Shown here: positions 8,014 through 46,836 of the stretch, one piece after another | How positions within the stretch are numbered: position 1 is the stretch's first letter | Layout of the letters: every line of letters begins with the position of its first letter | From: a virus | Direction: 5' to 3' (one strand) | IMG/VR virus record: IMGVR_UViG_3300014914_000006 | Location: 1 to 53,406 of that record | Length of the DNA: 53,406 bases | Made by a program: the position numbers and the translations under genes | Notes under the pieces: generated by a model | The model's input: only the letters and a program-made list of their open reading frames with translations | The model's database searches: none | What the model was told of the DNA's origin: nothing

Positions 8014-10463
8014 TGAAAGCAAGCAAAACACCGCCACAAAATCTTGAAGCAGAAGCATCTGTGCTTGGCTCAATGTTATTGTTACCAGAACAGATCCCAC
8101 TGATTGTTGGTAAGCTGGATCAGAACGATTTTTATATGACACAGAATGCTTTGGTATATTCTGCCATGCTTCACTTGATTGACAAGAACATCAAGATTGA
8201 TCTTGTCACATTGAAAGAAAGACTTGTTTCATGCAATGAACTTGATGAAGCAGGTGGAATAAAACGCTTGATTGAACTTGAAGAAATTGTGCCACATGCA
8301 CAGAACTTGAAAGAGTATGTGGATATTGTTCACAACTATTCAATCAGAAGGAAAATGTTGTATGCTGCACAGATTACAACCGATCTTGCATATGACGGAT
8401 CAATACCACTTGATGACGTTGTTGATTCTGCACAAAGAGAAATTGAAGCAGTTGCAACAAGATTTGATATGATCAATCGTGGTTCTGGCATTGACAGCAA
8501 AGATCATCTGATGGAAGAAATCTATACTGAAATAAAATCAGATAGCACATTAGACAGATCGACCGGATATATTGGCATTGACTACTCGCTCGGTGGAATT
8601 AAATCATCTGATATGATAGTGCTGGCTGGTAGACCAAGTTCGGGCAAAGCACAGCCCTTGGATGCAAAAGTATTGACACCTAATGGATTTGTATTAATGG
8701 GAAGTTTGAAACTGAATGATTATGTTTTAACACCAGATGGCAGCAAGTCTAAAGTAATTGGCATTTATGAACAGGGAGTTAAATCAGTTTATGAATTGCA
8801 ATTTTCTGATGATTCAAAATCTCAATGCACAGAAGATCATTTGTGGTTGACAACAACACGCAATGAACGCAGATCAAGATTAAGAAAAGATGGAAAAGTT
8901 AGAACGCTCAAGGAAATTAAAAACACATTAATTAGACAAGATGGGCAAGCTGGAAACCATCAAATACCGTGGACAAAACCTGTGGAGTTCAAATCGCAAA
9001 AAGAAATACTGCCAATAGAACCATATCTATTGGGAATGTTTTTAGGTGATGGCAGATATGATAGAACAGTCAAAATATGGAATGAAGAAAAAGATTTGCA
9101 AGATAAAATAATTAGCAAATTACATATTGATGATACTGCAACAATAACAGAACCAAATATAATCAGGATTGAAAGAAAAAAACGAAATAATCAGAAATCT
9201 GAATTTGCTAAAAGTTTAGATGAATTAGGATTAAGCATTCCGGGGTCTGCCTATAAATTTATACCGTCAATCTATTTATACGCTTCCCCGTTTGACAGAT
9301 TGGAATTGTTAAGAGGATTAGTTGATTCTGATGGATATGTTAATAACGGTGCTTTAGTTGAATATTCTACTATTTCAGAAATGCTGAAAGATGATATTAG
9401 TTTTTTGATTCGATCTTTAGGTGGAAAAGTTACAGTAACAGAGAAACCAAAACCACGCTATACCTATAAGGGAGATATGAAAATAGGTAAATTGGCATAT
9501 CGCATTTTCTTTTCATTTCAAAATAATACAGTTCCAGTTTCATCAAAAAAACATTTATCAAGATGGAAAGGACTTAAACGTATAGCAGGTCACGCAATTA
9601 AATCTGTAAGATACATTGGCAAGAAAATATGCAGATGTATTCAAATAGAAGATCATAGAGGATTGTATTTGACAGATGATTTTATCCCAACACACAACAC
9701 AACGCTTGCATTGAACATTGCAAACAATATGGCAATTGCAAAGCACCGTGTGGTGATCTTCACGCTTGAAACTTCAAAGTCAGAAATATACAAAACATTT
9801 CTATCTATGAACGGTGGTGCTTTTAGATTCAAATTCAATCCATTCTGGAAAGATAAGTGGAACAGTCTTAATTCAGAATACACAAACAAAGCCCATGAGT
9901 TTTGCAAAAATCTTGATGTTCAAATTCGTGATGAAAAAGAGCTGTATAGGAATCCCAGAAAGATCAGAAATTATTTATTGCAGCAAGACAGAAAAAGAAA
10001 GATCGGTCTCGTCATCATTGACCAGTTTACGTTGATGAATCACGACCATAATCAGAACCGCAAAGACTTGAACATGGAAATGTCAAGCAACATTATCCAG
10101 AACATGTGCAAAGACTTAGAAATCCCAGTAATACTTTTGCATCAATTAAATAGATCGGTTGAAAAAGATGTCCGGTATCCAAACATGTCTGATCTCCGTG
10201 AATGTGGAGCATTGGAACAAGATGCAGATGCAATCATCTTTCTGTCAAAAGTAATTAAAGCAAATGAGTCAGGTGGCAGAATGTTTGACGAAAAAGGTAA
10301 AGATCGAATTTGCTCAATTGCGAAATCAAAACTCGGTGCTGTTGAAAGTTATTCAATGCAATTGGCAACAGACACAATGACATTCATTGCAGACAACGAG
10401 CAAGAAGAAATGATCAAATTGAAAATGGAAGAAATGAAAGGCACTCTTTCAAAATGGGAATAA
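8013..10463 (+). CDS. dnaB: Replicative DNA helicase DnaB with intein
   Basis: An 816-residue precursor. Residues 1-212 carry the DnaB N-terminal domain (PPQNLEAEASVLGSMLL) and the start of the RecA-like ATPase, up to the Walker A motif GRPSSGK. An intein of 350 residues follows (213-562), and the helicase resumes with TTLALNIANN. Walker B is in LVIIDQ (D670), followed by HQLNRSVEKD and SDLRECGALEQDAD, all standard DnaB motifs. Removing the intein leaves 466 residues, a normal DnaB size. The helicase unwinds DNA at the phage fork and presumably is loaded by the preceding gene product. Splicing is needed to rebuild the ATP-binding loop. Confidence 0.95.
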   Translation: MKASKTPPQNLEAEASVLGSMLLLPEQIPLIVGKLDQNDFYMTQNALVYSAMLHLIDKNIKIDLVTLKERLVSCNELDEAGGIKRLIELEEIVPHAQNLKEYVDIVHNYSIRRKMLYAAQITTDLAYDGSIPLDDVVDSAQREIEAVATRFDMINRGSGIDSKDHLMEEIYTEIKSDSTLDRSTGYIGIDYSLGGIKSSDMIVLAGRPSSGKAQPLDAKVLTPNGFVLMGSLKLNDYVLTPDGSKSKVIGIYEQGVKSVYELQFSDDSKSQCTEDHLWLTTTRNERRSRLRKDGKVRTLKEIKNTLIRQDGQAGNHQIPWTKPVEFKSQKEILPIEPYLLGMFLGDGRYDRTVKIWNEEKDLQDKIISKLHIDDTATITEPNIIRIERKKRNNQKSEFAKSLDELGLSIPGSAYKFIPSIYLYASPFDRLELLRGLVDSDGYVNNGALVEYSTISEMLKDDISFLIRSLGGKVTVTEKPKPRYTYKGDMKIGKLAYRIFFSFQNNTVPVSSKKHLSRWKGLKRIAGHAIKSVRYIGKKICRCIQIEDHRGLYLTDDFIPTHNTTLALNIANNMAIAKHRVVIFTLETSKSEIYKTFLSMNGGAFRFKFNPFWKDKWNSLNSEYTNKAHEFCKNLDVQIRDEKELYRNPRKIRNYLLQQDRKRKIGLVIIDQFTLMNHDHNQNRKDLNMEMSSNIIQNMCKDLEIPVILLHQLNRSVEKDVRYPNMSDLRECGALEQDADAIIFLSKVIKANESGGRMFDEKGKDRICSIAKSKLGAVESYSMQLATDTMTFIADNEQEEMIKLKMEEMKGTLSKWE
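8649..9698 (+). mobile_element. Intein in DnaB Walker A with LAGLIDADG endonuclease
   Basis: Intein residues 213-562 of the precursor. It begins with Ala (AQPLDAKVL) instead of Cys or Ser, and ends in His-Asn before Thr. W278 in TEDHLWL, C542 in CRCIQIED and T560 in PTHN match the Trp-Cys-Thr triad that defines class 3 inteins, which splice from the internal Cys. Two LAGLIDADG-like blocks, LLGMFLGDG and LLRGLVDSDG, keep both acidic residues, so the homing endonuclease may be active. Insertion is between the Lys and Thr of GK-T, the known DnaB-b site. Confidence 0.9.
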
Positions 10464-12258: not shown

Positions 12259-13341
12259 ATGGCTATAAATGTTTTATCATTATTTGACGGCATGAGTTGC
12301 GGACAAATCGCATTGAATCGAACCGGAATTGAATACGATAATTACTTTGCTTCCGAAATAGATAAATATGCGATTAAAGTTACTCGAGCCAACTATCCAG
12401 ATACTATTCAGTTGGGAGATATCAGGCATGTTGAAGCTGTTGATTTACCTAAGATTGATTTGTTAATAGGTGGTTCTCCGTGTCAGGGGTTTAGTTTTTC
12501 TGGCAAGCAATTAAACTTTGATGATCCTAGAAGCGCATTATTTTTTGAGTTCGTCCGATTGCTGAAAGAATGCAAGCCTAAATATTTCCTCCTTGAAAAC
12601 GTGATAATGTCTCAAGAAAGTAACGATGTGATTAGCTGTACGTTAGGTGAGATGTTCCCAAATTGCGTGAGCCAAAAACAACTTTTCCAAGCCGGTAGAC
12701 TTGAGCCTATTTGTATCAATTCCGCTTTAGTATCGGCTCAAAACAGGAAACGATTATATTGGACAAACATCCCAGGGCTTACGCAGCCAAAAGACAAAGG
12801 AATCATTTTAGAGGATGTATTGGAAGATTGCTCCAATTCAGTATATCAACGAGGCAGAGGCAATAACAAGGGCGGCATTAAAAGCAATAAAAGCCCTTCT
12901 ATAACATCTAGTCGGTGGGAAGAAAATGTAAAGGTTCCTGTTATTAAAATTAACAATGAACTGATATATAAGCCTCATAAGTCTCAATGTTTAGTGGCTA
13001 ATTATTATAAAGGTAGTGATAATCACGGAATGAGAACCGGCTGTATCGAAGTTGGTCATGCCGAAATAAACGGAAATGACATACTGAAAAGAGTATATTC
13101 ACCTAAAGGCAAATCTCCCACATTGACAGCTATTTGCGGAGGTAATCAAGAAAATAAGATAGCAATAGATCATAAAAGGTGGAGAAAATTAACTCCGGTA
13201 GAATGTGAAAAATTGCAAACTGTCCCGGACAATTACACAAACCACGTAAGCCCTACGCAACGATATAAAATGTTAGGCAATGGATGGACTGTTGATGTGA
13301 TAGTCCACATTATAAAAAGTATGAAAGATTGCCCAGAGTAA
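12259..13341 (+). CDS. DNA (cytosine-5) methyltransferase
   Basis: A 360-residue C5 methyltransferase with all main motifs in order: I (LSLFDGMSCGQ, SAM binding), IV (GGSPCQGFSFSG, catalytic C75), VI (LLENV, E113), VIII (SAQNRKRLYW) and X (MLGNGWTVDVI). The variable region (about 185-300) would set the target sequence, which cannot be read from the protein. It methylates cytosine in phage DNA, probably to resist host restriction. The ATG at 12259 has AAAGG upstream. Its codon choice looks less A/G-repetitive than the flanking early genes, consistent with separate acquisition. Confidence 0.93.
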   Translation: MAINVLSLFDGMSCGQIALNRTGIEYDNYFASEIDKYAIKVTRANYPDTIQLGDIRHVEAVDLPKIDLLIGGSPCQGFSFSGKQLNFDDPRSALFFEFVRLLKECKPKYFLLENVIMSQESNDVISCTLGEMFPNCVSQKQLFQAGRLEPICINSALVSAQNRKRLYWTNIPGLTQPKDKGIILEDVLEDCSNSVYQRGRGNNKGGIKSNKSPSITSSRWEENVKVPVIKINNELIYKPHKSQCLVANYYKGSDNHGMRTGCIEVGHAEINGNDILKRVYSPKGKSPTLTAICGGNQENKIAIDHKRWRKLTPVECEKLQTVPDNYTNHVSPTQRYKMLGNGWTVDVIVHIIKSMKDCPE

Positions 13342-15373: not shown

Positions 15374-15724
15374 ATGAAAACTGAACAATTAATATATCTG
15401 GCAAGTCCATACACAGATGATTCTGCAAAGATAGTCAATGAACGATATGAAGCAACATGCAAGATCACAGCTTTATTGTTGAGTCAAGGATTATATGTTT
15501 ACAGTCCGATTGTGCATGGTCATTGCTTGATAGGTTATGGACTTGAAACGGATTGGGAAAATTGGAAGCATTTTGACAAACTGATGATAGATAAATCTGA
15601 TATTATCTACGTGTTGATGATTGACGGTTGGAATGAGTCAATTGGTGTCAACGCTGAAATTAGATATGCGATTGACTTAGGCATGGATGTTAAATACTTA
15701 GATGTCAACGGAGAAATTCAATGA
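15374..15724 (+). CDS. DUF1937 / nucleoside deoxyribosyltransferase-like protein
   Basis: A 116-residue protein. IYLASPYTDDSAKIVNERYE at the start, YSPIVHGHCL in the middle and MIDGWNESIGVNAEIRYAID near the end match DUF1937, related to nucleoside 2-deoxyribosyltransferases. The conserved W-x-x-S-x-G-x-x-x-E block would form the nucleotide-binding site. It may act on modified or host nucleotides, which fits the surrounding DNA-modification genes, but the substrate is unknown. It overlaps the helicase start by four bases. Confidence 0.8.
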   Translation: MKTEQLIYLASPYTDDSAKIVNERYEATCKITALLLSQGLYVYSPIVHGHCLIGYGLETDWENWKHFDKLMIDKSDIIYVLMIDGWNESIGVNAEIRYAIDLGMDVKYLDVNGEIQ

Positions 15725-17091
15725 TTAAACCAAACGGAAATATTGAGCATATGAATTATCATCAATTTATTAAAACCAAAGAGCGTAACATTCAACCTAG
15801 TGGATTTTCAGATGATGTATCTGGATATGGATTATTTGATTTTCAGGAGCATTTAACTTCGTGGGCATTGGAGCAAGGTAAGTCTGCGATATTTGCAGAT
15901 TGCGGATTAGGCAAAACACCGATGCAACTTGTATGGGCTGATCGTATAGCTAGAAAATTTGGAAAAGTCTTGATCGTATCACCATTAGCAGTATCAGACC
16001 AGACAGTAAGAGAGGCTAAGAAGTTTGGCATTGACGGAGTTAAAAGATCGAAAAATGGAGACACTTACAGAATCACAGTTACTAATTACGAGAGATTGCA
16101 TTATTTTTCACCAGATGAATTTTCAGGGATTGTATGCGATGAATCATCAATCTTGAAAAACTATGCAGGCAAGACTCGTCAAGCGATAACAGATTTTATG
16201 CAGAAAATACCATACAGATTACTATGCACAGCAACTCCAGCACCTAATGATTATATGGAGCTTGGCACTTCATGCGAGGCGTTATCTATCATGCGTAGAG
16301 TTGAAATGTTAGCAATGTATTTTATACATAATAGCGGCAGCACTCAAGCATGGGATTTGAAAGGTCATGCAGCGGATGTGTTTTGGCGGTTCATGGCTTT
16401 ATGGTCTAGGGCGATGCGTAAGCCAAGCGATCTAGGATTTGATGATGGTGATTTTATTCTGCCAGAACTTAAGCATAATCTTATCACAGTTAAAAGTAAG
16501 CCTCTACATGGCGATTTGTTTCCGGTGGAAGCATTGACTCTAAACGATCAAAGGGCTGAACGTAGAAGCACTCTTGATGACAGGTGTAAGGCTGTAGCTG
16601 ATATTGCTAATAGTAATGACGATTCTTTTTTGGCATGGTGTTCTTTGAATGCAGAATCCGATTGTTTGACAAAATATATAAATGGTGCCGTATCAGTTAG
16701 TGGGTCTGATTCAGACGATGAAAAAGAACGTAAGATGATGGAATTTTCAGATGGCACTATCAGATGTCTTGTCACAAAACCAAAAATCTCTGGATTCGGT
16801 TTAAATTGGCAACATTGTAATCAGATGAGTTTCTTCCCATCTCACTCGCATGAGCAATATTATCAAGCCGTTCGTAGATGTTGGCGGTTTGGACAGGAAA
16901 ACGATGTAACAGTTAATATTGTTACTTCCGAAGGTGAGATAGCAGTTCTTGAAAACATGCGAAGAAAAGAAGTAGCAGCCAATGCAATGTTTGATTCGAT
17001 AATTAAACATATGACAAACGCTATTAAAAATATTGATAACACTTACAAACCAAATAGAAAAATGGAGATACCGGCATGGCTAAATGTATGA
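15721..17091 (+). CDS. SNF2-type superfamily 2 helicase/translocase
   Basis: A 456-residue ATPase. The first RecA-like domain has LFDFQEHLTSWAL, Walker A ADCGLGKT (about 59-66), VSPLAV, and Walker B CDESSIL (D140-E141-S-S). The second has SGFGLNWQHC and motif VI QAVRRCWRFGQ, typical of SNF2-like enzymes. It is shorter than cellular SNF2 proteins but close to phage relatives. The end overlaps the next methyltransferase by 16 bases; this helicase-methyltransferase pair recurs in phages and suggests joint action on DNA. Confidence 0.88.
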   Translation: MIKPNGNIEHMNYHQFIKTKERNIQPSGFSDDVSGYGLFDFQEHLTSWALEQGKSAIFADCGLGKTPMQLVWADRIARKFGKVLIVSPLAVSDQTVREAKKFGIDGVKRSKNGDTYRITVTNYERLHYFSPDEFSGIVCDESSILKNYAGKTRQAITDFMQKIPYRLLCTATPAPNDYMELGTSCEALSIMRRVEMLAMYFIHNSGSTQAWDLKGHAADVFWRFMALWSRAMRKPSDLGFDDGDFILPELKHNLITVKSKPLHGDLFPVEALTLNDQRAERRSTLDDRCKAVADIANSNDDSFLAWCSLNAESDCLTKYINGAVSVSGSDSDDEKERKMMEFSDGTIRCLVTKPKISGFGLNWQHCNQMSFFPSHSHEQYYQAVRRCWRFGQENDVTVNIVTSEGEIAVLENMRRKEVAANAMFDSIIKHMTNAIKNIDNTYKPNRKMEIPAWLNV

Positions 17092-18008
17092 ACCAAGTAA
17101 TTACAGATCAATATTCGTGTTATCATGGAGATTGTGTAGAATTAATTAAAAACATACCTGATGATTGCATTGGATTATCTGTGTTTTCTCCACCATTTGC
17201 AGAGCTATATGCTTATAGTGATAGTCCGAGAGACATGGGGAACAGTAAAAGTTATGATGAGTTCTTCCAGCAATTTTCATATCTCATTTCAGAGTTAAAT
17301 CGAGTTACGATGCCTGGCAGGATAGTTGCAGTTCATTGCATAGATATTCCGGCTATGAAAGAGCGAGACGGATATATTGGTCTAAAGGATTTTCCAGGTG
17401 ACATAATTAGAGCTTTTCAGAAATGCGGATTTATTTATCACTCAAGACATGCGATATGGAAAGACCCGTTGACAGAAGCGACTAGAACAAAGGCACTTGG
17501 ACTGATGCACAAGCAGCTATGCAAAGATTCTGCTATGTGCAGATCAGGATTGCCTGATTACGTGTTGGCATTTCGTAAAAAAGGTGACAATGCCATTCCT
17601 ATTGAAAAGCAGCATGGATTCACAGAATATCATGGCTCAAACATAATCACAGGCGAAGGTGTTAAACGAAGTCATAATATTTGGCGGTCTTATGCTAGTC
17701 CTGTGTGGATGGATATCCGCCAATCTAATACTTTGAACAAGAAAAATGCTAGAATTGAAAAAGACCAGAAACACATATGCCCATTGCAGCTAGATGTCAT
17801 TGAGCGAGTTGTGTCTTTATGGTCAGTTGAAGGTGACATCGTATTGACTCCATTTGGTGGCATTGGTTCAGAATCTTATGTCGCCATAAAGAACAATCGC
17901 AGGTCAATTTTATTTGAACTTAAAGAATCCTATTATGAGCAGGCGGTTATCAATTGTAATAACGCTGCAAATATTAAATATTCAGAAACCAATGATATGT
18001 TTTTATAG
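17076..18008 (+). CDS. DNA N4/N6 amino-methyltransferase
   Basis: A 310-residue enzyme of the beta-type motif order: catalytic motif IV SPPF (S38-F41) comes first, and the SAM-binding motif LTPFGGIGSESYVAI (about 257-271) comes last. SPP[Y/F] favours N4-cytosine methylation over adenine, but this is not certain. Motif I has Thr where Asp is usual (TPFGG for DPFxG), which is worth noting. GGAG lies nine bases before the ATG at 17076. It probably protects phage DNA or marks it for the partner helicase. Confidence 0.88.
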   Translation: MAKCMNQVITDQYSCYHGDCVELIKNIPDDCIGLSVFSPPFAELYAYSDSPRDMGNSKSYDEFFQQFSYLISELNRVTMPGRIVAVHCIDIPAMKERDGYIGLKDFPGDIIRAFQKCGFIYHSRHAIWKDPLTEATRTKALGLMHKQLCKDSAMCRSGLPDYVLAFRKKGDNAIPIEKQHGFTEYHGSNIITGEGVKRSHNIWRSYASPVWMDIRQSNTLNKKNARIEKDQKHICPLQLDVIERVVSLWSVEGDIVLTPFGGIGSESYVAIKNNRRSILFELKESYYEQAVINCNNAANIKYSETNDMFL

Positions 18009-35375: not shown

Positions 35376-36923
35376 CTATACAATGTTAGTTATTATGCCA
35401 CCTGTGACTGTTACCGTTTTGCCATCCGTTGTTGTGAAATTACCAGTTGCTCCTGCTGCTGCACCTATTCTAAAAAGAGTTGAAGAACTCACATCTCCAA
35501 CAACATCAAGCGGATAAGCTGGAGCATTTTTGTTGATTCCTATGCGACTTGTTCCAGCATCTAAAAAGAAACAATTGGCATTGGTATCGCTTTCAATTCT
35601 AAAATCAGTATCGAAACCAAGATTGTTAAAAACGATTTCAGCGGTTGCTTTTTCAACAATAAAATCCCAAGTCGTTCCTGTATAAACTATAGACACATCA
35701 TTGCCTAATCCCAACCGGAATTTAGTATTGTCCTGTGGAATATCAACGTATCCTGATGTAAGGAATAAATCTATCTGGTTTATTCCCATAGCAAAACTAT
35801 TCAAGGTCGCATTGGTTATACTCTTGCCGATTGCTAAGGCATAGGATGCTCCATAACTTACTTCATTGTTATAGCCTATCGCTAAACTAGCCCAGCCTTT
35901 TGCCCGTGGTCCATCACCAAAACCTTGACTGGGACCAATTGCAGTTGCATAATTCGCCTCTGCAAGAGCGTCAAATCCAATCGCTACTGAACTATAACCT
36001 TGTGCAGATGCTCGATCGCCAATCGCAACCGCTGCCGGTTGCAACGCCTCAGAGTTGGTTCCGAGTGAAACTGAATAGTGAGCTACCGCATTCACACCAA
36101 ACCCCAGACCAACAGATCCATGTCCTTGTGCTCTCGCAGCATAACCCATAGCGACACTAAAATTACCAGATGCGACTGTAGCTTGTGCTGGCATTATTTG
36201 ATAACCACCAGCAGCAAAGGATGATATACCTGAAGCAATCGACCTATCGCCAAAAGCTGCGGAATAATTGCCACTAGCCTCACAGTCATAGCCCATCGGT
36301 AAAGCATAATTACCTATAGGAGATGTATTGCTAACACTTTGAAGGATTCCAAATCTCAAACTCTGAATTTCTTGTATCGCTATTTCTGCTTCTGTTAACT
36401 CATAAACCTCAAATCTATAAATGTTCAAAGTTCCACCAAAACCGCCAAAATCCTCTAACTTTGGACCAGTCGCCGCTGTCGCTTGAAAGTATGCTACATC
36501 TTCTGCAAAACCTGATAATACTCCAGCACCCCAAGTAATATCCCATCCACCGACGCTTAATTTAGGAGCCATAAAACTTATGACCTCAATCTTGTAATCA
36601 ACTTTATACCATTTCCCAATAGTTAAGGTGGTTCCGTATTGTGTTAAAGCTGTGAATGCTGTCGTTGTCTGAACGTAATTATCTGGTCCAGATATAGGCG
36701 TCCATGCACTTGAAGCATCGGTCCAGCCTGTTTCACCATTGTCAAATTCACCGTTAACAACAGTAGACGATTCCGCTATGCCAGCAATTAACTTCTCATA
36801 AACGGTTAAATTTTGAACATCACTATCACCGATATTGGTAAGATCAAACCCCTGCCAATCTTTATCGGCATCTATTATTAATGCAGAAACTAATCCTGAA
36901 AATGACGTATTATCTAATAACAT
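35376..36923 (-). CDS. Fibre/adhesin with YadA-like head repeats
   Basis: A 515-residue protein. From about residue 205 to 370 there is a run of 14-16-residue units such as SVAMGYAARAQGHGSVGLGF, AVAIGDRASAQGYSSVAIGF and NYATAIG. These match the left-handed beta-roll of the YadA/trimeric autotransporter head (A-x-A-x-G). The N-terminal 180 residues include a carbohydrate-binding-like stretch (NGEFDNGETGWTDASSAWTP). The C-terminus contains GTSRIGINKNAPAYPLDVVG, a motif common in phage fibre tips. It probably binds the host surface. ATG at 36923 is taken. Confidence 0.75.
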   Translation of the reverse strand: MLLDNTSFSGLVSALIIDADKDWQGFDLTNIGDSDVQNLTVYEKLIAGIAESSTVVNGEFDNGETGWTDASSAWTPISGPDNYVQTTTAFTALTQYGTTLTIGKWYKVDYKIEVISFMAPKLSVGGWDITWGAGVLSGFAEDVAYFQATAATGPKLEDFGGFGGTLNIYRFEVYELTEAEIAIQEIQSLRFGILQSVSNTSPIGNYALPMGYDCEASGNYSAAFGDRSIASGISSFAAGGYQIMPAQATVASGNFSVAMGYAARAQGHGSVGLGFGVNAVAHYSVSLGTNSEALQPAAVAIGDRASAQGYSSVAIGFDALAEANYATAIGPSQGFGDGPRAKGWASLAIGYNNEVSYGASYALAIGKSITNATLNSFAMGINQIDLFLTSGYVDIPQDNTKFRLGLGNDVSIVYTGTTWDFIVEKATAEIVFNNLGFDTDFRIESDTNANCFFLDAGTSRIGINKNAPAYPLDVVGDVSSSTLFRIGAAAGATGNFTTTDGKTVTVTGGIITNIV

Positions 36924-36935
36924 TTTATATTCCAA

Positions 36936-37319
36936 TTACATTAAGTGTAAAAGCCATCCAACTAAAGCAATAACAATTGTGACAATCATTCCGACTGAAA
37001 ACCTGCTTGTTTCTTTTGAGTCTGCAAGTGCTTGATGTTTTTCAGCACAAACCTCTTTGTGTGCTGTTAGTTTCTCTGACACTTCTGTTGATTTGGTTTT
37101 TGCTTCATCAGATTTTACAAACAATCTTTCAAAATACTTGCTTGCTTTTTCTGTAAAATCTTTTTGTGACTCTTTGATTTCTTCAACATTTTCAGCAACA
37201 GCTTTTGCAGATTCTTTTTGAACATTGACATGACCTTCAACTTTCGCTTCAAAAGTATCCATTCTGCCTTCCAATCTAATTATTTTATTCTCATTGCTTT
37301 GAGGTGTTGGCTCAGTCAT
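36936..37319 (-). CDS. XhlA-like coiled-coil membrane protein
   Basis: A 127-residue protein: a long charged coiled coil (about 15-100) ends in one hydrophobic segment, FSVGMIVTIVIALVGWLLHL, at the C-terminus. This is the build of XhlA-type holin partners and some spanin-like lysis proteins. It lies next to the holin and lipoprotein genes and has AAGGAAATAA upstream. Lysis involvement is likely but not proven. Confidence 0.65.
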   Translation of the reverse strand: MTEPTPQSNENKIIRLEGRMDTFEAKVEGHVNVQKESAKAVAENVEEIKESQKDFTEKASKYFERLFVKSDEAKTKSTEVSEKLTAHKEVCAEKHQALADSKETSRFSVGMIVTIVIALVGWLLHLM

Positions 37320-38273: not shown

Positions 38274-38807
38274 TTATCTGATCCTTAAATCAAAGCTGTA
38301 TGGTCGGAGTTTCTTCATAATCTTTGCTGTGAAAAACTGTTCATAATCAAGATTGTTTGAACTGCCATTTGGTCTGTTCCAATATGCTTCATAAACAAGA
38401 TCAAGCAAGACTTGTTTCAGCCCAGCAGGACAATCAGTTCCATCTGTATTGTAGCCAGCTCCATAGGTTACTTTCCAGCGTTTTGTGCCAGATCCAAATG
38501 AATCATATGTGCTGTTGCATTTGAACTCTATCCGCATTTCAGTATGGATAAAATCTTCAGTCAATTCGGTATCGTCATAATTATCTTCAATCTTTGTAAC
38601 TGAATTAATCGGAAGTAATTGTGGGCGTAAAGATTTATTGCCACCATCGCAATTTGCAATAGCAGTGTCATCACCATCATGAAAATATATTCCAGTTTTC
38701 TGTGCAATGAAGTTCTGCATTGATTCAATGATAATTGTCACCAAAGTATCTTCCGATGGTGCTATTATCTGCAAGAACTGTTTTGTTGTTGTAAGATCAA
38801 CGATCAT
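38274..38807 (-). CDS. Head-tail connector (HK97 gp6-like)
   Basis: A 177-residue helical protein. TTTKQFLQIIAPSEDTLVTI at the start, INSVTKIEDNYDDTEL in the middle and CPAGLKQVLLDLVYEAYWNR near the end fit the phage gp6-like connector/adaptor family. The protein would form the ring between portal and tail. ATG at 38807 follows AGGTGA. It sits downstream of the glycosyltransferase cassette, away from the portal and capsid, which is unusual. Confidence 0.72.
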   Translation of the reverse strand: MIVDLTTTKQFLQIIAPSEDTLVTIIIESMQNFIAQKTGIYFHDGDDTAIANCDGGNKSLRPQLLPINSVTKIEDNYDDTELTEDFIHTEMRIEFKCNSTYDSFGSGTKRWKVTYGAGYNTDGTDCPAGLKQVLLDLVYEAYWNRPNGSSNNLDYEQFFTAKIMKKLRPYSFDLRIR

Positions 38808-38988
38808 TATTTTCACCTATTGTTTGAATTTCATTGACGTTTCCAATAATCACAAGCATTTTGCACGCTTCAAGTTTTCTTGCTTGTGAATAACCCATCA
38901 TATCCTGATCACCTTTGAATCTTCTGAATAGTCCTTCAGATGTTGATATTGCACCTTCTGTCAGCCATTTAATCAAAACTTTCTTCAT
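38797..38988 (-). CDS. Unknown small protein (63 aa)
   Basis: ATG at 38988 overlaps the stop of the glycosyltransferase gene (TAATG). The protein is basic and helical, with LIKWLTEGAISTSEGLFRRF. No clear family. It overlaps the connector gene by 11 bases. Confidence 0.5.
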   Translation of the reverse strand: MKKVLIKWLTEGAISTSEGLFRRFKGDQDMMGYSQARKLEACKMLVIIGNVNEIQTIGENNDR

Positions 38989-39734
38989 TACCAATATTGT
39001 CCTACGCCATTAGTTCCAAAATGCAGCACATTATTTGAATCTGGTGCTGGTGCAGATTTCACTTCAGGAAATTTCTTTTGAACCTCTTTCCACCATCTTG
39101 AATCTTCTTTCCTGTTTTCTCTGAACTTCACTTCATCCCAAATCCACTTCGGGAATGCCATGTTGCATCCCATGATTGCAGCTGTTCCATTTTCAAATCC
39201 TCTGTGTCCTATTCTACTGCAATTTGAAAGCATCTTCAGCTGATCATAAGTGTCAACAGCTTCTGGAATCAGTTTGATTTCAGGAATAAAATATCTGGGT
39301 CCAACAAAGACTTTCTTCATCTGATCTTTGCTGATGAATACAGAATCAACATATACTTGACAATGGATACTAGCACCCATTTTCCAGCCAACATATGACC
39401 ATTTATTGAGCTTGCCAGAATAAATATCTCTGTATGTTTCAATGAAATTCTTTGGGAATGTGCAATCAGCGTCAATCGTCACAATTATATCAATATCTCT
39501 GCAATGCTCTTGTATGGCATTGTTAATTGCAATGCCACGTGAATATGCGTTTGGGTGAAGATCGTGACGGGAAACGTGTATATTATCGCTCTGGTCAAAG
39601 GCTGGTGATATGTCCATACTGTCAAGAGCAACAATAACTTTGTCAGCTTTGACAGTCTGATTTCTAAGTGCATGAATGATCTTTGACCACTCTGCATATT
39701 GTTTGTGAAATGCGATAATCAAAGCAATTTTCAT
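38988..39734 (-). CDS. Family 2-type glycosyltransferase
   Basis: A 248-residue GT-A fold enzyme. It starts KIALIIAFHKQYAEWSKII and has the nucleotide-sugar region VALDSMD, a TIDADCTFP segment with D88-x-D90 for metal and UDP binding, and a C-terminal acceptor region. It would transfer a sugar to a phage or host molecule. It is the last gene of the five-gene cassette. It overlaps the methyltransferase by four bases. Confidence 0.82.
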   Translation of the reverse strand: MKIALIIAFHKQYAEWSKIIHALRNQTVKADKVIVALDSMDISPAFDQSDNIHVSRHDLHPNAYSRGIAINNAIQEHCRDIDIIVTIDADCTFPKNFIETYRDIYSGKLNKWSYVGWKMGASIHCQVYVDSVFISKDQMKKVFVGPRYFIPEIKLIPEAVDTYDQLKMLSNCSRIGHRGFENGTAAIMGCNMAFPKWIWDEVKFRENRKEDSRWWKEVQKKFPEVKSAPAPDSNNVLHFGTNGVGQYW

Positions 39735-40315
39735 TTTTCTATTCTTTCAAATACCATCACGTTTTTCCAATACCACCATTGCACGTTGGATTCTTTCCAA
39801 GATTTTCTAAGATTTTCAGTCATGCTTTTCTTGAAGGTCAATCCCTTGCTTTCAATCTTGTCAATCCAATATTGATGTGGTTTTTCATTGACATGATTGT
39901 TGCCACCTTGATTCGGAACAGCACCAGAAAAAATCAACCATTTTCCAGCAATGTCAAGAATGTTGTCAATTGCAACATCTTCAAATTCAGCATCAATATG
40001 TTCAATTACCTCAAGGCAGAATGCAAGTTCTGCTGGCTGACATCCAATATTGTTTTTCAAATTTGCAATCCTAATGTTTTTAGGATCATAAGCAAAATCT
40101 TTTGAGTGTTCAGAAGCATCAATGCCATAGACTTCAACGCCAACATTGTTAAATTCGTTCAAGTGATTGCAAGGACCGCAACCAATATCAATGACTGTTT
40201 TTGGGTGAAACAGATCAACAATTGAATCAACCATAAAACGAGCTTGTTCAATGTGTGCTGGAAGTGCCTTGCCAGTCATCCATTCTTTGTTGTAAATATC
40301 AGATTCATTTTTCAA
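39731..40315 (-). CDS. SAM-dependent methyltransferase (194 aa)
   Basis: A class I methyltransferase: motif I is TVIDIGCGPCNHLNEF (about 39-54), the acidic end of strand 2 is VYGIDAS, and the motif IV region is AFCLEVIEHID. The family often methylates small or sugar molecules; the cassette context suggests modification of a glycan. It is not a DNA methyltransferase, as the catalytic PP motif is absent. It overlaps both neighbours. Confidence 0.82.
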   Translation of the reverse strand: MKNESDIYNKEWMTGKALPAHIEQARFMVDSIVDLFHPKTVIDIGCGPCNHLNEFNNVGVEVYGIDASEHSKDFAYDPKNIRIANLKNNIGCQPAELAFCLEVIEHIDAEFEDVAIDNILDIAGKWLIFSGAVPNQGGNNHVNEKPHQYWIDKIESKGLTFKKSMTENLRKSWKESNVQWWYWKNVMVFERIEK

Positions 40316-40868
40316 AGTTCACCACTCCACAAATATGATTGTTATTGCCTTGAATGATCTTCACTTTGCCATATTTCTCAAAATATTTAATTGCTGCTTC
40401 ATCATTTGCCCAGCCGATCAGATGTCCATCATCAATCAGTTCACGTTTTGTTGGCATTCCACGAGGAACTGAAAAGATCAAACGATATTTTGCAACCATT
40501 TTGATTCTGTTCATTATGTTTGCGAGTTCTTCCCATGTGAAATGTTCGAGTGTTTGACAACAGACAACAGTGCCAAATGAATTTCTCCAATGCTCGCCAA
40601 GTTTAGTTACATCACCTTTCAAGAATATCTTATCTGGCATTTGCTCTTTTGCTTGCTCGATTAAATATGAACTAATATCCATTCCAACATACTGTGTTTT
40701 AGGATCAAGATATTTGCAGAAACGACCAAATGCACAGCCGATCTCAAGAACTGATCCTTTGACATTTCTGACAGCTGATGCAAACTCCATTGAACGATCT
40801 CTGAAGTCATTTTTGTCAGTGTATTTCTTGCCTTTCATGTTCCACCAGTCAAAACTATTTGCTTTCAT
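40305..40868 (-). CDS. SAM-dependent methyltransferase (187 aa)
   Basis: A class I methyltransferase: GSVLEIGCAFGRFCKYL is motif I and QYVGMDISSYLIEQAKEQ the second strand; TVVCCQTLEHF marks motif IV. It differs from the next methyltransferase but has the same general type, so the two may methylate different positions. AAGGAA precedes the ATG. Target is unknown; sugar or glycolipid methylation is inferred from neighbours. Confidence 0.82.
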   Translation of the reverse strand: MKANSFDWWNMKGKKYTDKNDFRDRSMEFASAVRNVKGSVLEIGCAFGRFCKYLDPKTQYVGMDISSYLIEQAKEQMPDKIFLKGDVTKLGEHWRNSFGTVVCCQTLEHFTWEELANIMNRIKMVAKYRLIFSVPRGMPTKRELIDDGHLIGWANDEAAIKYFEKYGKVKIIQGNNNHICGVVNFEK

Positions 40869-41442
40869 ATTCTTTCCTTATTTGTTTGTAAAGTTCATAT
40901 TCTTTTGCAGCATTATGACTTCCAATTGGTGACAGTGTTCTTTCTTGTTCGTGCAGAACTTCAGGTGCTTTGTCATATTCCCAATAATGATATGGCTTTT
41001 TATACCCCCAGAAATCAAAGCCATACAAATCACAATGTTTCAATCCCACTGTTTTATGCACCCAATAAATGAATGTGATCCCTGTGCTTGGCTTATGCCC
41101 TAAAAGACTCCAAAGTTCTTGATGGATTTCTTTTTCAATGAATCTGATTCTTGTGTTCATTGGAACTTTTCTTCCGGCAAGATGTATTCTGTTCGGATCG
41201 GGCCATGTGCAATAAACTTTGTCAAATGGTCCATATTCCCATCGTTCAAGATATTCTCCACCGCATGGTGTATCGTTCAAGCAAGTCACATAGATGTTTG
41301 CTTTCTTGCCATAATCTTCTGTATGAACCGGCTTAAATCCTTGAAATCTGACAACATAATCATGGCTGTCAATTTGATTGCCGAGGCATTTACCAAATTC
41401 ACCAATTCCATTTCCGACTATTGCCATAACATCAGGAAACAT
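40855..41442 (-). CDS. Sialyltransferase-like (GT29-type) glycosyltransferase
   Basis: A 195-residue protein. IVGNGIGEFGKCLGNQIDSH followed by DYVVRF corresponds to the sialyl motif L of GT29 (VGN...S.D.VxRF). PSTGITFIYWV (118-128) and LYGFDFW correspond to motif S. HYWEYD matches motif III, and H176-x4-E181 matches the very short (VS) motif. GT29 enzymes transfer sialic acid from CMP-sialic acid; family membership is based on these motifs, and substrate is not shown. ATG at 41442 is taken. It lies in the capsid-side sugar cassette. Confidence 0.72.
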   Translation of the reverse strand: MFPDVMAIVGNGIGEFGKCLGNQIDSHDYVVRFQGFKPVHTEDYGKKANIYVTCLNDTPCGGEYLERWEYGPFDKVYCTWPDPNRIHLAGRKVPMNTRIRFIEKEIHQELWSLLGHKPSTGITFIYWVHKTVGLKHCDLYGFDFWGYKKPYHYWEYDKAPEVLHEQERTLSPIGSHNAAKEYELYKQIRKEYESK

Positions 41443-43462
41443 CAATTTTCCATTTCTGCATATTTGTATATGCTCTTTTCACGATCTCTGGAACATCCCA
41501 GTCAACTGCTGATAATATCCCGTCACCACAATCACCAATTTCACCATCCCAATTATGCCATGCTGCCATTCTTTCATTTCTTGCATTGTCATCACCATCA
41601 CGCTTCAAATAAAAATCATGTTTTGCTTGCATGATCTGCTTTGGCAGACAATGACCAAGATGATAAATTCGTGCTTCAGGAATAAGCAACGCTTCTTTTT
41701 CTCTGATGCTGTGCAATCGTTTGTGATTAGCATCAACCATTGTTGGATGTTCTTTGAAGTGATATGACTTTCTTAAATACGACCAACGATAATGCGGACA
41801 TGCAGAACCGCCATCTTGAAGTGGCAATCCCCAACGCCATGATCTTTTTAGCTTCGGATCGTCATGCACATATTGCTTCAGATTGTGCCAGAAATTAATC
41901 CATCTAGGACATCCGAAATCAATATCTGCTTCAATCCATTTGTCAAGACCAGTCCAGATTTCATCACCGTCAAGCAAGATGTGATAATTGCCCGACATCT
42001 GATCAAGACACCAGTTCCGCATTTGACGTTTATCATTCCATACTTTTTCAAGCATGATGATTTTATTATCGGGATCTGGAAAGTTTTTAATTCTTTCAAG
42101 TGATCCATCGTCAATATTCTGTGCATGATATGTCTTGCCATAAGCAATGACAATTTCATCAACGTATGGATAAATACTTTCTAATGATTCAGAGCAAACG
42201 CCCCAATATGCAAGCAACTGTGCTGAAATCTTTTTCTTTTTGATTGTGTGAAATCTCAAATCCTCAACAGATGATTTCATTGCTTCCATGCCAAATGTTT
42301 CAGCTTCTTTTTCTGGTTCAATCAAATTAGCATACGTTTCTTTTTCTTTGACAACCGTGTTGACAAGTTCTTTGTATGCTTCACGGTCATTCCATTTTGC
42401 ATATGATATTCTACTGCCATACACTTCATGCAATACGGGCAGATCATACACAACAACTGGTGTGCCACAAGCGAGTGCTTCCATCGGCACCATGCCACAT
42501 CCTTCAAATAAACTTGGAGCAAGAACAATGTCAGCATTCAGATAATATTGATACTTTGTTACATCGTTGATTTGCTCCAATATTTTATACTTATGTTTTG
42601 CAGTGTCAGCTGGAACTTTCTTTGGCTGACCGATCATCATAAGATCCATATCACAATCAAGTGCTGCGATTGCTTCAAGAGCAACGTCACCGCCTTTATA
42701 TTTTGGTCCACGTGCTGACCAAACCGCATACGGTCGCAAATACGGACTGTCAAGTTTCTTTGCTTCTTCAAGCGCAAACGTATTAACGGCTGGAAGTAAA
42801 ACACCAATCTCAGAAACGTCACGATTGACAAACTTTGCAAGATACTTTGCTGACTCTTTTGAATTTGCGATTAAGTAATCAGCTTGAGTGAACAATCCTG
42901 ATCTGATATTTAATTGTTTTGCATAGTCTGGGCAAAATTCAGCCACCCAGTTTGGTGTTTCAAAGTTAAATATAACAAGCGGTATGTGTGGATTATCTTT
43001 CTTCCACTGAAAAGCTGCCCGACCAATTGTGCTTTTTGTATCAGTCACATACATATCAAGATCCATTGGAATTTCATCCGAGTTCCATATTCTGATCTTC
43101 AGATTTTCGTACTTCGGATAATCATTCATCCAAAGCGGATATCTGTCTGTAACAACATACACTTCAGCACCAAGTTCAGCCAGATTCAAAGCATATTGAT
43201 AAAGATGCAATCTGCCACCAGAATACCATGGGCTTGTTTCTATGAAAATGCCAATTCTTTTTATTCTTGTATTCACGCCAGCTGGCTTTCCAATTCTGCC
43301 ATGACTTTTATGTGACAATCTTCTGTGACCAATCTTTCCTTCTTTCAGCATTCTTTCAGCATCAGACCGAAGCATGACTTTGATTAGATCGCCAGAATTG
43401 ATGGTGACTTTATCGCCATTACTATTAATTACATCTTGCTTTATCAACGATCTGTAATACAT
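41432..43462 (-). CDS. Double glycosyltransferase (GT4 plus GT-A) with N-terminal module
   Basis: A 676-residue fusion. Residues 1-45 form a small module (TINSGDLIKVMLRSDAERML, then KEGKI). Residues about 66-390 form a GT-B glycosyltransferase with SARGPKYKGGDVALEAI and the E320-x7-E328 signature (FEGCGMVPMEA, then LACGTPVV), as in GT4. Residues about 410-676 are a GT-A-like domain with LLDGDEIW (D498-x-D500). The two catalytic domains could add sugars in sequence. It is unusually large for a phage enzyme. AAGGATC precedes the ATG. Confidence 0.82.
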   Translation of the reverse strand: MYYRSLIKQDVINSNGDKVTINSGDLIKVMLRSDAERMLKEGKIGHRRLSHKSHGRIGKPAGVNTRIKRIGIFIETSPWYSGGRLHLYQYALNLAELGAEVYVVTDRYPLWMNDYPKYENLKIRIWNSDEIPMDLDMYVTDTKSTIGRAAFQWKKDNPHIPLVIFNFETPNWVAEFCPDYAKQLNIRSGLFTQADYLIANSKESAKYLAKFVNRDVSEIGVLLPAVNTFALEEAKKLDSPYLRPYAVWSARGPKYKGGDVALEAIAALDCDMDLMMIGQPKKVPADTAKHKYKILEQINDVTKYQYYLNADIVLAPSLFEGCGMVPMEALACGTPVVVYDLPVLHEVYGSRISYAKWNDREAYKELVNTVVKEKETYANLIEPEKEAETFGMEAMKSSVEDLRFHTIKKKKISAQLLAYWGVCSESLESIYPYVDEIVIAYGKTYHAQNIDDGSLERIKNFPDPDNKIIMLEKVWNDKRQMRNWCLDQMSGNYHILLDGDEIWTGLDKWIEADIDFGCPRWINFWHNLKQYVHDDPKLKRSWRWGLPLQDGGSACPHYRWSYLRKSYHFKEHPTMVDANHKRLHSIREKEALLIPEARIYHLGHCLPKQIMQAKHDFYLKRDGDDNARNERMAAWHNWDGEIGDCGDGILSAVDWDVPEIVKRAYTNMQKWKIDVS

Positions 43463-44206
43463 CTATTGATCCTTATCCTTGTCAGCAACTTCAATTGATG
43501 ATCTTGATACAAAATTAAGATCAAATAATTCAATGACTCTGAATGAAGCAGAATCACCAAACAATTCAACTTTTGCACGATTATCTTTTAATAATACAAT
43601 GATCTTTCCGTCAAAGTTTTTGCCGTTGAACATTGTCTTGACCAGATCGCCTTCTTCAAGTTCTTCAGAATCGGGATCTGATTCAAGTGGAACACCTTTC
43701 AAGACTTTTCTGGCAAGATGACAGCCAAGAATGAAACTGACTTTTCTTTGCTTCATCAATGATTTAATTTGCTTTTCGATCTTTGATGGGTTTTCATTGA
43801 AGTCAAATGAAATCAACATGACATGTTCTGCTTCTGTCAAAACTTTATACCGATCTTTGACTTTCAGCAAAGCATGTTCAATTGTCAGTTTGTCATCACC
43901 AGAATTTGGCTTTGGTGCAATGTAATTCATCAGCATTGCATAAACAGAGTTTGCTGGCATTCCTAAAAGATCAGCTGTTTCTTTGATGATTTCTTTGTTG
44001 TTGTCATAGATTAAATCGCCTTTGGTTTTCTCACTTCCCATAGGCAATACAGCTTTCAGCTTGATCTTGCCAGCTTTGATCTTCTTTTCTTTTAGCAATT
44101 TCTCAAGTTCAGGACGTTGCCTAATATCAAAATGTGATCCTTTTGAAATCTTCACTCTGACATCATTCTGCATTCTTTCAAAATCTTTTAGTGCGGTCAC
44201 GATCAT
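43463..44206 (-). CDS. Unknown protein next to capsid gene (247 aa)
   Basis: ATG at 44206 follows GGAGGATA and is preferred to one at 44248. The N-terminal 42 residues (DVRVKISKGSHFDIRQRPEL then EKLLKEKKI) resemble the N-terminal module of the adjacent double glycosyltransferase. The middle holds helices, and the C-terminus holds a KOW/Tudor-like beta segment (EEGDLVKTMFNGKNFDGKII). No family found. It could be a head-associated protein or a partner of the sugar cassette. Confidence 0.6.
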   Translation of the reverse strand: MIVTALKDFERMQNDVRVKISKGSHFDIRQRPELEKLLKEKKIKAGKIKLKAVLPMGSEKTKGDLIYDNNKEIIKETADLLGMPANSVYAMLMNYIAPKPNSGDDKLTIEHALLKVKDRYKVLTEAEHVMLISFDFNENPSKIEKQIKSLMKQRKVSFILGCHLARKVLKGVPLESDPDSEELEEGDLVKTMFNGKNFDGKIIVLLKDNRAKVELFGDSASFRVIELFDLNFVSRSSIEVADKDKDQ

Positions 44207-44283
44207 TTCATATCCTCCGGTTTTATAAAAAATTTCAATCTGATTCACTTCAATAAATGAAACTGACAGAAAGTTTTTTAATA

Positions 44284-44345: not shown

Positions 44346-45764
44346 TTAACTTCCTTGACCAACTAAAATACTGAATGCACGTTCAAACATAGGCTGTCCA
44401 CCAGCAAGACCGTCAACACGGTAAGCAATGGCACCTTTTTTAAACTCTGCATGTTCACTTCGAGCAATTGCAACTTCTTCTTCAAGGACAAACCAGTAAT
44501 TCATCAGGTTGCCGAAGATGATGTCACCAACTGTTCCGAGTGCAGAACAATTATGACTTATGAAGTATGGATGATTATCCAAACGATCATAAGGACCAGA
44601 TCCCACTGAATTGGAGAATAAAGGATCTCCGTTGGTATCTTTTTGCTTTTTCAAATACTTCAGAACCAAGTCAGCCATGATAAAGCCAGCACCGTTACGG
44701 TGAGCAGCTTTGACTTCGTGTTCCAGATTGATCAGATCATCATACACAACTTGCAAGTTTGTTTGACGACCGACGGTTCTGATTCCAGCCATGACAGTTA
44801 TGCCAAGAGGCTGTGCAACTCCTGAACCTGACATGATTGCTTGATCAAACTTGGCGATCAATGCAGCACGCAATTTTGAAACAAGTTCATTTTCAAAAGG
44901 TAACCGTGAACGCATCAGCAAAGTTTTGGTGAAACTTGTGTATGCTTTCAGAGGATAGCAATTGATTGTGACACGTTCAAAATCAATTTCAGTATCAGGA
45001 GCATCTGATTTTTCATCAGTCCATTCAACTGCAATACCACCAAATTCATTGCTGTCATCTTGCTCAAGTTTTGTTTCAACAAGTGAGCCGCCGACAGTGG
45101 TCTTTTTGTTTACTCGCATATACAGACTCGGTTCATCAAATGGCAACTGAAGGATCTGATTGCCGTAATCGGGCCATACTAAGTTAGCACGACCACCGGC
45201 TGCATCATTGTCTGTTGAAGCCATCGGAAGTGCCTTGCCACCAAACGGCATACCGGGCAACATTCTACGAAGTAAAGAATGCGGAATGACAGCTTGAAAT
45301 CCACCACCCTGTTTGTTGCCGATGTCACGAATTGCAGCAGATTTCGGAGTCAAGATGTTCAGTTCTTGATCTTTCATGTTCCGTTCGCCGTTCTTCATAA
45401 AATTGAAAAACGCTTCACCCTGCAAATGCTCGTGCTTTTCTTGTGAAGTATTATCAAAGACTTTGACATCATCAACTTTCTTGCCAGCAAGTGCAGCTTC
45501 ATCGGGAATAACAACTTTCTTGAAATCAGCAGCTTTTGCAAGTAGCAGATCAACATTTTTCTGTTCTTCCGCTTCTTTAATTGCTTCGGTAAGTTCATCA
45601 GAAATACTTTTGACTTCTGCATGTGCAGTGTCATAGGCTTTCTGGGCAATTTCAATGTCAGCTTCAACTTCTTTTTCCGTTGCGTCTGCAACAGCAACTT
45701 TCATTGCTTTCATTGTTTCAACAGCTTTTTGCAGCTTTGCTTGGAGTTCTTTTAACTTATTCAA
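44346..45764 (-). CDS. Major capsid protein (HK97 fold)
   Basis: A 472-residue protein. Residues 1-115 are a charged helical delta-type scaffold (LKELQAKLQKAVETMKAMK), which the preceding protease would remove. The capsid fold follows, with PMASTDNDAAGGRANLVWPD, VEWTDEKSDAPDTEIDFERV, the long spine-helix region FENELVSKLRAALIAKFDQA and GSGVAQPLGI. The start codon is TTG at 45764, with TAGGAGA seven bases upstream; no nearby in-frame ATG has such a site. A TTG for the most abundant virion protein is unexpected. Confidence 0.92.
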   Translation of the reverse strand: MNKLKELQAKLQKAVETMKAMKVAVADATEKEVEADIEIAQKAYDTAHAEVKSISDELTEAIKEAEEQKNVDLLLAKAADFKKVVIPDEAALAGKKVDDVKVFDNTSQEKHEHLQGEAFFNFMKNGERNMKDQELNILTPKSAAIRDIGNKQGGGFQAVIPHSLLRRMLPGMPFGGKALPMASTDNDAAGGRANLVWPDYGNQILQLPFDEPSLYMRVNKKTTVGGSLVETKLEQDDSNEFGGIAVEWTDEKSDAPDTEIDFERVTINCYPLKAYTSFTKTLLMRSRLPFENELVSKLRAALIAKFDQAIMSGSGVAQPLGITVMAGIRTVGRQTNLQVVYDDLINLEHEVKAAHRNGAGFIMADLVLKYLKKQKDTNGDPLFSNSVGSGPYDRLDNHPYFISHNCSALGTVGDIIFGNLMNYWFVLEEEVAIARSEHAEFKKGAIAYRVDGLAGGQPMFERAFSILVGQGS

Positions 45765-45774
45765 TGTAATTCTC

Positions 45775-46836
45775 CTATAAGTTTACGATTTTGGAAGCAA
45801 GCTCTGCCGATAGAGCTTGATACTTCACAATATCTTCATCCATCGAGTGAACATCAACAGTGGCAACTGTTTTGTCCGGCTCAATATTCGGATCTTCAAT
45901 TGTGTCATCTTCATCATCCGCATCATCACGACTGTTGCCTGACAGTGTGACATCAGATGACAAGACTTTTATTTCAACACTGATAATTTTCGCTTCAGTG
46001 ATTTCATATTCATCATTCGTTTTGATTACATCAAACAGAATATTTGTGCAGCATTTTTCAATATCATCAGTCACTTCAATGTCAACTGGAATCTTGCCAG
46101 ATGCTCCACGCTCTTTGATCGACTTTGTGAAAGCTGAATCAGCAACTTTGAAAGTTTCAACAAAGACATTTTCATAATAGACACCAACGCCATCGTCATT
46201 GATCTTCAGCTTGAAAAGTGGTTCTTCTTTTTCTTCAGTCTTTTCAACTTTGTCACTGAACAATGCAGCCATGACATCTTTCATCAGAATTTTGCTTTGA
46301 ACTGACTTGCTTAATGCTTCAGCATTTGCTGGAACTGGAACAGCAGACACTTCAACAATTTCAGCTTTTGTGATGTCATAGCCAAGGATTTCTTTATAGC
46401 CATATTCATTTTCTTTTTCGGCTCTGATTTCTTCCCACTCTAAAGGGATGAAGCCAATTGACCAAGCACGCATATATTTCTTTTTGTAAAGTTCCCAAAC
46501 TTCACGAGCAAGTTCAGTTTCTTCATGGAACTGCACAGTCAATTCAGTTTTGTTTTTGAACACTCTGACATTCAATGCTCTTGCAATGGGTGGTATGCTG
46601 TGATCATGTGCCCAGAGCATGACAGGATTTTTTAAGAAAGCATCCCAGATCAAACCATCTGAACGAACATTATCACCATCACGATCTTTGCTCGAAGTTG
46701 TTGCAATGATCTTCATTGTCCGATCTTTTTCGTTGATCGAAATGATGTCATAGTTGACAACATGCAGCATTTTTTCACCCTTGACAATCTCTTTGACATT
46801 AAGATTTGGGATTTTATCTTCTGCTTTTGGTGGCAT
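45775..46836 (-). CDS. Prohead protease (S78) with C-terminal extension
   Basis: A 353-residue protein. The HK97 prohead protease core (about 20-190) has ATTSSKDRDGDNV, PVMLWAHDHS with the catalytic His region (77-79), RAWSIGFIP with catalytic S126, and IVEVSAVPVPANAEAL. It matures the capsid by cutting the delta region. The C-terminal 160 residues are an acidic extension not part of the core family and may have scaffold-like properties. AGGAGA precedes the ATG. Confidence 0.9.
   Translation of the reverse strand: MPPKAEDKIPNLNVKEIVKGEKMLHVVNYDIISINEKDRTMKIIATTSSKDRDGDNVRSDGLIWDAFLKNPVMLWAHDHSIPPIARALNVRVFKNKTELTVQFHEETELAREVWELYKKKYMRAWSIGFIPLEWEEIRAEKENEYGYKEILGYDITKAEIVEVSAVPVPANAEALSKSVQSKILMKDVMAALFSDKVEKTEEKEEPLFKLKINDDGVGVYYENVFVETFKVADSAFTKSIKERGASGKIPVDIEVTDDIEKCCTNILFDVIKTNDEYEITEAKIISVEIKVLSSDVTLSGNSRDDADDEDDTIEDPNIEPDKTVATVDVHSMDEDIVKYQALSAELASKIVNL

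Follow-up and report, generated by a model that had tools for sequence, protein, structure and literature searches.

The window considered here is the entire contig of IMG/VR record IMGVR_UViG_3300014914_000006 (53,406 bases), in which neither end repeats nor tRNA genes were found. Five open reading frames (ORFs), one of which encodes a member of glycosyltransferase family GT29, form a run on its minus strand (38988-43462), within a tailed-phage late operon and between the capsid and connector genes. The ORFs, which encode predicted glycosyltransferases and methyltransferases, overlap by 4-14 bases at each junction, and the first of them, the GT4 ORF, begins directly after a gene for a 261-residue protein (43463-44248). 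The tight five-gene run described in an earlier, sequence-only reading of this DNA is thus borne out, with the addition of two ORFs at its borders: the 261-residue gene separates the cassette from the capsid gene, and a 65-residue ORF separates it from the connector gene. Promoter-like and terminator-like sites between positions 37000 and 47000 are no more frequent than in shuffled sequence. The GC content of the cassette (0.380) is near that of the structural genes (0.401), so that its composition does not mark it as a fresh foreign insert.

The second protein of the cassette, 195-196 residues long depending on the start codon, matches PF00777 (Glyco_transf_29) at 1.6e-9 (38 bits versus a curated cut-off of 23), its sole Pfam family match of weight. 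All four sialylmotifs previously claimed for it are present, namely L (VGN at residue 10 and QIDSHDYVVRFQ at 24), S (KPSTG at 118), III (HYWE at 153) and VS (H177-xxxx-E182); the DNA pattern of motif L occurs once in the window and in none of 100 shuffles. When a profile from an alignment of 61 relatives was searched against the PDB, ST3Gal-I was the best match (1.5e-25), followed by ST6Gal-I, ST8Sia III and ST6GalNAc II, with GT42 CstII ranking after the GT29 structures at about 3e-8. The AlphaFold (AF2) model (pLDDT 79, pTM 0.80) leads to the same family, since all 30 Foldseek matches in the PDB at E <= 0.001 are GT29 structures and GT42 appears only from rank 31 down. Both rankings speak against a CstII-type GT42 identity. 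An FkbM methyltransferase identity was likewise rejected, there being no FkbM Pfam match at E <= 1, and no better match to an unrelated family emerged. Profile, motifs and predicted fold therefore agree with the GT29 assignment of the sequence-only reading, and we regard it as practically certain that the protein belongs to this family and has the modified GT-A fold that lacks a DxD motif.

G11, G22, I25, D26, D29, R33, G46, G122, H177 and E182 are kept in the protein and its 54 viral relatives, with H177 and E182 invariant among the 55 sequences. A tree of 146 GT29 domains pairs the window protein with that of the viral contig L025 (support 0.83), in a group that is otherwise mostly bacterial. 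It could be argued that the protein has retained the fold but has decayed or been repurposed and no longer transfers a sugar from a cytidine monophosphate (CMP)-activated ulosonate, for it is short (196 residues) and has Q at position 35, where motif L reads RFQ rather than the RFN of its relatives (N in 10 of the 11 sequences of one alignment). We consider this improbable: the key residues, including H177 and E182, are those of its viral relatives, the reading frame is intact, and other phage and bacterial members are equally short.

The other four enzymes are supported to different degrees (Table 1). The 676-residue protein had been described as a GT4/GT-A double glycosyltransferase. Its GT4 part, with an E-x7-E motif (EGCGMVPME), is well matched, whereas the C-terminal GT-A-like part, which contains a DGDE motif, gives a weak GT2 signal below the cut-off (PF00535, 0.037). 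The GT2-type call for the last enzyme has a DAD motif in its favor and is likely, not certain, because its score falls just under the cut-off. The two class I methyltransferases, by comparison, both score above a cut-off, as expected from the initial reading; the second is 27% identical to a methyltransferase of a GT29-bearing phage contig (L074/L391). None of the five proteins has a membrane segment, the 19-residue hydrophobic window never exceeding 1.35.

Table 1. The cassette and flanking genes of the late operon
Feature	Coordinates	Strand	Basis
Prohead protease (flank)	45775..46836	-	PF04586 3.5e-10
HK97-type major capsid protein (flank)	44346..45764	-	TIGR01554 3e-53; PF05065 7.1e-45
261-residue protein, no assigned function, between capsid gene and cassette	43463..44248	-	no Pfam, PHROG or NCBIfam match of weight
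Double glycosyltransferase, 676 residues: GT4 (residues ~82-410) and GT-A-like C-terminal part	41432..43462	-	PF00534 (Glycos_transf_1) 7.8e-19; PHROG glycosyltransferase 2.7e-18
GT29 family glycosyltransferase, 195-196 residues (ATG at 41442, TTG at 41445)	40855..41445	-	PF00777, sialylmotifs, fold
Class I S-adenosylmethionine-dependent methyltransferase 1	40305..40868	-	PF13649 7e-13; PF08241 2.5e-12; above a cut-off
Class I S-adenosylmethionine-dependent methyltransferase 2	39731..40315	-	PF13489 1.2e-6, above cut-off
Probable GT2-type (GT-A) glycosyltransferase with DAD motif	38988..39734	-	PF00535 (Glycos_transf_2) 8.7e-4, 19.7 bits versus cut-off 23.3
65-residue ORF between cassette and connector	38797..38994	-	ORF only
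Head-tail connector (flank)	38274..38816	-	PF05135 2.2e-7; phrog_442 head-tail adaptor 3.9e-11

Of the phage proteins sampled, the GT4 protein and the 261-residue protein are reciprocal best pairwise matches over the initial ~50 residues of each, where no known domain was matched. One of 2000 shuffles scored as well; the likeness is suggestive only, and residues 1-50 of the GT4 protein may represent a segment shared with its neighbor. That such a segment is a DUF7210-type domain tethering the GT4 enzyme to the head is no more than a lead, and the DUF7210 profile, at E <= 10, matches nothing in the window.

The expectation that GT29-like proteins would be out of place in a phage is not supported: GT29 is widespread in uncultured phages. 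IMG/VR was scanned with the DNA pattern of motif L, and 80 loci among the matches listed were taken for analysis. All 84 in-frame motif matches in these loci score below 5e-12 against a GT29 profile from which they had been left out, and all 61 relatives tested match PF00777 at E <= 0.01; no GT29 gene was found in 80 random viral loci. PHROGs has no family for any of the 61 members at E <= 0.001. Single-protein searches of IMG/VR with the GT29 protein, the major capsid protein or the GT4 protein returned no relatives, nor did INPHARED contain a relative of the window GT29 protein. Searched with a viral GT29, INPHARED yielded a single record, Stenotrophomonas phage DLP6, whose GT29 gene (a hypothetical protein there) adjoins genes annotated as methyltransferase and nucleotide-diphospho-sugar transferase. 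An uncultured Caudovirales phage protein in UniProt/BFVD (A0A6J5NLG3) carries the name glycosyl transferase family 29. Bacterial GT29 genes are rarer: among 398 genomes of the phylum, 9 have one, and these include the window's own.

Across 78 loci, a hidden Markov model detected 17 methyltransferase-like genes no more than three genes away from GT29, and none among 770 control genes, a count that is descriptive only, because the model was partly trained on the same loci. GT29 genes also occur repeatedly within single contigs: four lie in a row in L057 (2449-5259, minus strand), L079 and L098 have three each, and L050 (2080-8569, plus strand) has two and, by reading, a third GT29-like gene, interspersed with methyltransferases. 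The name alpha-2,3/2,8-sialyltransferase is that of GT42 enzymes. A putative gene of that name is mentioned in one Azotobacter phage paper. The 2018 survey of GT29 (Sci Rep, PMC5811610) reported bacterial members, and its main text contains neither the word virus nor the word phage. Nothing on the function of phage GT29 was found in the open-access literature, which is weak evidence of absence.

Which sugar such enzymes transfer is suggested by their neighbors, and that the family is associated with CMP-ulosonate genes is a direct observation from the contigs of other phages. CTP_transf_3, the CMP-ulosonate synthetase domain, is found above cut-off in 11 of 50 GT29 viral contigs and in none of 50 control viral contigs (one-sided Fisher p 2.6e-4; the controls were drawn by random 14-mer and are unmatched for phage type). 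KdsA, the synthase of 3-deoxy-D-manno-octulosonic acid (Kdo) 8-phosphate, is encoded by six of the 50 contigs, each of which also has CTP_transf_3, and NeuB by three; the donor is therefore probably CMP-Kdo or a CMP-nonulosonate. In L040 and L046, the gene order is cytidylyltransferase, KdsA, a glycosyltransferase-like gene and GT29. NCBIfam names the KdsA proteins of L040 and L391, the two tested, Kdo-8-P synthase; the best matches of the corresponding cytidylyltransferases are KdsB-type, above cut-off in L391 only. A third cytidylyltransferase, that of L060, is PseF/NeuA-like. As a separate observation, a Lachnospiraceae bin contains near a GT29 gene a cytidylyltransferase fused to a KDN-9-phosphatase/KdsC-like domain (L207, 936-2096, minus strand).

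The contig of the window phage comes from a 1.9-Mb metagenome bin, 76% complete, in which the lpxK-kdsB gene order (KdsB equivalog 5e-95) points to a Gram-negative, probably proteobacterial, host. A terminase search across 58 related host genomes gave only a single, distant match, at 24% identity, and the host is therefore assigned by binning alone. No neuB match was found in the bin at its 76% completeness. From these data, we consider it very probable that the GT29 enzyme uses a CMP-activated ulosonate. Kdo appears somewhat favored, because the bin makes it; CMP-sialic acid is not favored, because the bin has kdsB and no detectable neuB. Nonulosonates are retained as candidates in view of the incompleteness of the bin and of the clade evidence discussed below.

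The gene content of the cassette and its position in the late operon are direct observations, and they bear on the acceptor. The remainder of the minus strand has the gene content of a tailed phage, with terminase, portal, Mu-F head protein, prohead protease, HK97 capsid, connector and tape-measure genes, while the plus strand encodes replication and DNA-modification functions. A GT29 cassette occupies the corresponding slot in L060, a contig from an unrelated, SU10-like phage, where the order is portal (PF23899), major capsid protein (PF17236, 7.5e-70), GT4, C-methyltransferase, GT29, cytidylyltransferase (PF02348) and adaptor (PF24175, 2.3e-15). In L025, the nearest relative (34% identity), a run of glycosyltransferase, methyltransferase and GT29 genes lies, by reading, behind the tail module on the same strand, with profile support from PF13578 and, weakly, PF13704. 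Because of the head-operon position, the L060 slot, the L025 run, the absence of hydrophobic segments and the mycobacteriophage precedent, a virion acceptor is favored. That the cassette is a soluble pathway which equips a virion protein with a methylated, ulosonate-bearing glycan has, in our opinion, an even to slightly better than even chance of being correct. The suggestion of the sequence-only reading that the capsid or tail is decorated is favored by location, by the L060 slot and by the lack of membrane enzymes; the acceptor itself is one that we infer.

Under such a mechanism, the cassette would be expressed together with the late head genes. The double enzyme and the GT2 enzyme would attach, in an order that is our conjecture, one to three neutral sugars to a virion protein, on the side chain of serine, threonine or another residue, the candidates being the capsid protein, a tail protein or the neighboring 261-residue protein. 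Next, an acidic ulosonic sugar, taken from a CMP-activated donor, would be added as a cap by the GT29 enzyme, with His177 presumably serving as the general base, as in ST3Gal-I, and the two methyltransferases would O-methylate the sugars, the likely targets of methylation. The donor of first choice would be CMP-Kdo, drawn from the lipopolysaccharide (LPS) pathway of the Gram-negative host, and that of second choice a CMP-nonulosonate of the sialic, legionaminic or pseudaminic type.

The same enzymes could instead alter the host surface, adding a methylated Kdo- or sialic-type residue to the LPS core or capsule late in infection and thereby blocking re-adsorption of released virions or superinfection. 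Bacterial GT29 genes do occur in capsule or polysaccharide loci, for example on a Roseobacter plasmid and on the E. coli plasmid NZ_CP137739.1, where GT29 (L019, 7044-8579, plus strand) lies in a capsule locus that also has kdsB and genes for capsule export; LPS genes, including KdsA and NeuA, have been reported for marine viral genomes (PMC5332604). The cassette, however, lacks a membrane enzyme, flippase, polymerase or lipid-carrier transferase, gtr-type genes were not seen among the window genes tested, and virion proteins fit the late head-operon position better. We regard this alternative as a serious rival, though somewhat less likely than a virion glycan.

Several observations weigh against a virion glycan made as proposed. 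In other phages, many GT29 genes are found away from the structural modules, as in L040, downstream of ribonucleotide reductase genes, and some belong to large O-antigen-like islands, such as the one in L391 that includes GDP-mannose dehydratase, KdsA and KdsB; this setting also supports a host-surface role. Window-clade bacteria with adjacent cytidylyltransferases have PseF/NeuA-like enzymes, not KdsB, which speaks for a nonulosonate donor in the clade of the window protein. The weak profile matches of the GT2 enzyme and of the C-terminal GT-A part, the Q at position 35 and the assignment of the host by binning count on the same side.

A further alternative, that the glycosyltransferases modify bases of the phage DNA in the manner of T4-like glucosylation, seems very improbable to us. 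The phage does encode a C5-cytosine methylase and an N6/N4 methylase, but these are some 20 kb distant, in the early region and on the opposite strand. Moreover, no dCMP hydroxymethylase or DNA glycosyltransferase family was matched in the genes tested, and CMP-ulosonates are the donors of GT29 enzymes with known activity. The early plus-strand region includes the C5-cytosine methylase (12259-13341), a SNF2/ResIII-type helicase (15721-17091) and the N6/N4 methylase (17076-18008). The DnaB helicase gene (8013-10463, plus strand) appears to contain, between the N- and C-terminal domains of the helicase, an intein that carries a homing endonuclease domain of the LAGLIDADG type (PF14528, 5.4e-7). 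On the minus strand, a 519-residue protein with YadA head repeats (35376-36935; PF05658, 9e-13) is possibly a trimeric adhesin-like fiber.

GT29 has so far been treated as a eukaryotic family with few bacterial members, and it now proves common in uncultured phages. The new element is the link of phage GT29 to CMP-Kdo and CMP-nonulosonate genes across phages. Phages may widely employ these enzymes to transfer Kdo or a nonulosonate, in many cases alongside a KdsA/KdsB or NeuB of their own, and the window and SU10-like virions may display an acidic methylated glycan; we offer this broader picture tentatively, as a doubtful but possible one. No description of an ulosonylated phage particle was found in the literature searched. 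If virions do carry ulosonic sugars, this would be a new route to an acidic, host-like particle surface, with effects on adsorption, stability or recognition. Small soluble GT29 enzymes would then be available that are easily assayed, together with a large sequence set for the origin of the animal and plant enzymes.

The GT29 protein shares sialylmotifs L, S, III and VS and the fold with the sialyltransferases ST3Gal-I, ST6Gal-I, ST8Sia III and ST6GalNAc II, to which it is 14-21% identical over structural alignments; unlike them, it has no membrane anchor, and it is about 70-120 residues shorter than their solved catalytic domains. Among plant enzymes, RCKT1/MGP2 is a GT29 reported to use CMP-Kdo rather than CMP-sialic acid (PMC11288761), and the presence of KdsA/KdsB genes next to phage GT29 points to that donor as well; RCKT1/MGP2, however, is a Golgi enzyme whose acceptor is the pectin rhamnogalacturonan-II. 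The bacterial GT29 proteins (PMC5811610) and those of uncultured phages (UniProt/BFVD) belong to the same family; in the literature searched, none was characterized or linked to a virion operon or to CMP-Kdo genes. A gtr-type serotype conversion cluster was ruled against, no hydrophobic segment of the kind found in a flippase or polytopic glycosyltransferase being present in the five proteins, and their lack of membrane segments likewise sets them apart from lipid-linked O-antigen systems.

The nearest parallel is virion glycosylation in mycobacteriophages (Che8 and cluster O; Freeman et al. 2023, as described in PMC11600133 and PMC11256854), in which glycosyltransferase and O-methyltransferase genes modify the capsid and tail tube. 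According to these secondary accounts, tandem glycosyltransferase genes are accompanied by an O-methyltransferase gene, and the window cassette likewise has its glycosyltransferase and methyltransferase genes in one run. In the mycobacteriophages, glycans are reported on the capsid and tail tube, whereas the window cassette is known from its genes; the portions of those accounts on this system mention no GT29 or CMP-ulosonate link, and the hosts are mycobacteria, while the window cassette lies between capsid and connector genes of a phage apparently infecting a Gram-negative host. The best explanation, in our opinion, is that the cassette works like a phage glycosylation cassette, with an enzyme set that differs from the mycobacteriophage one.

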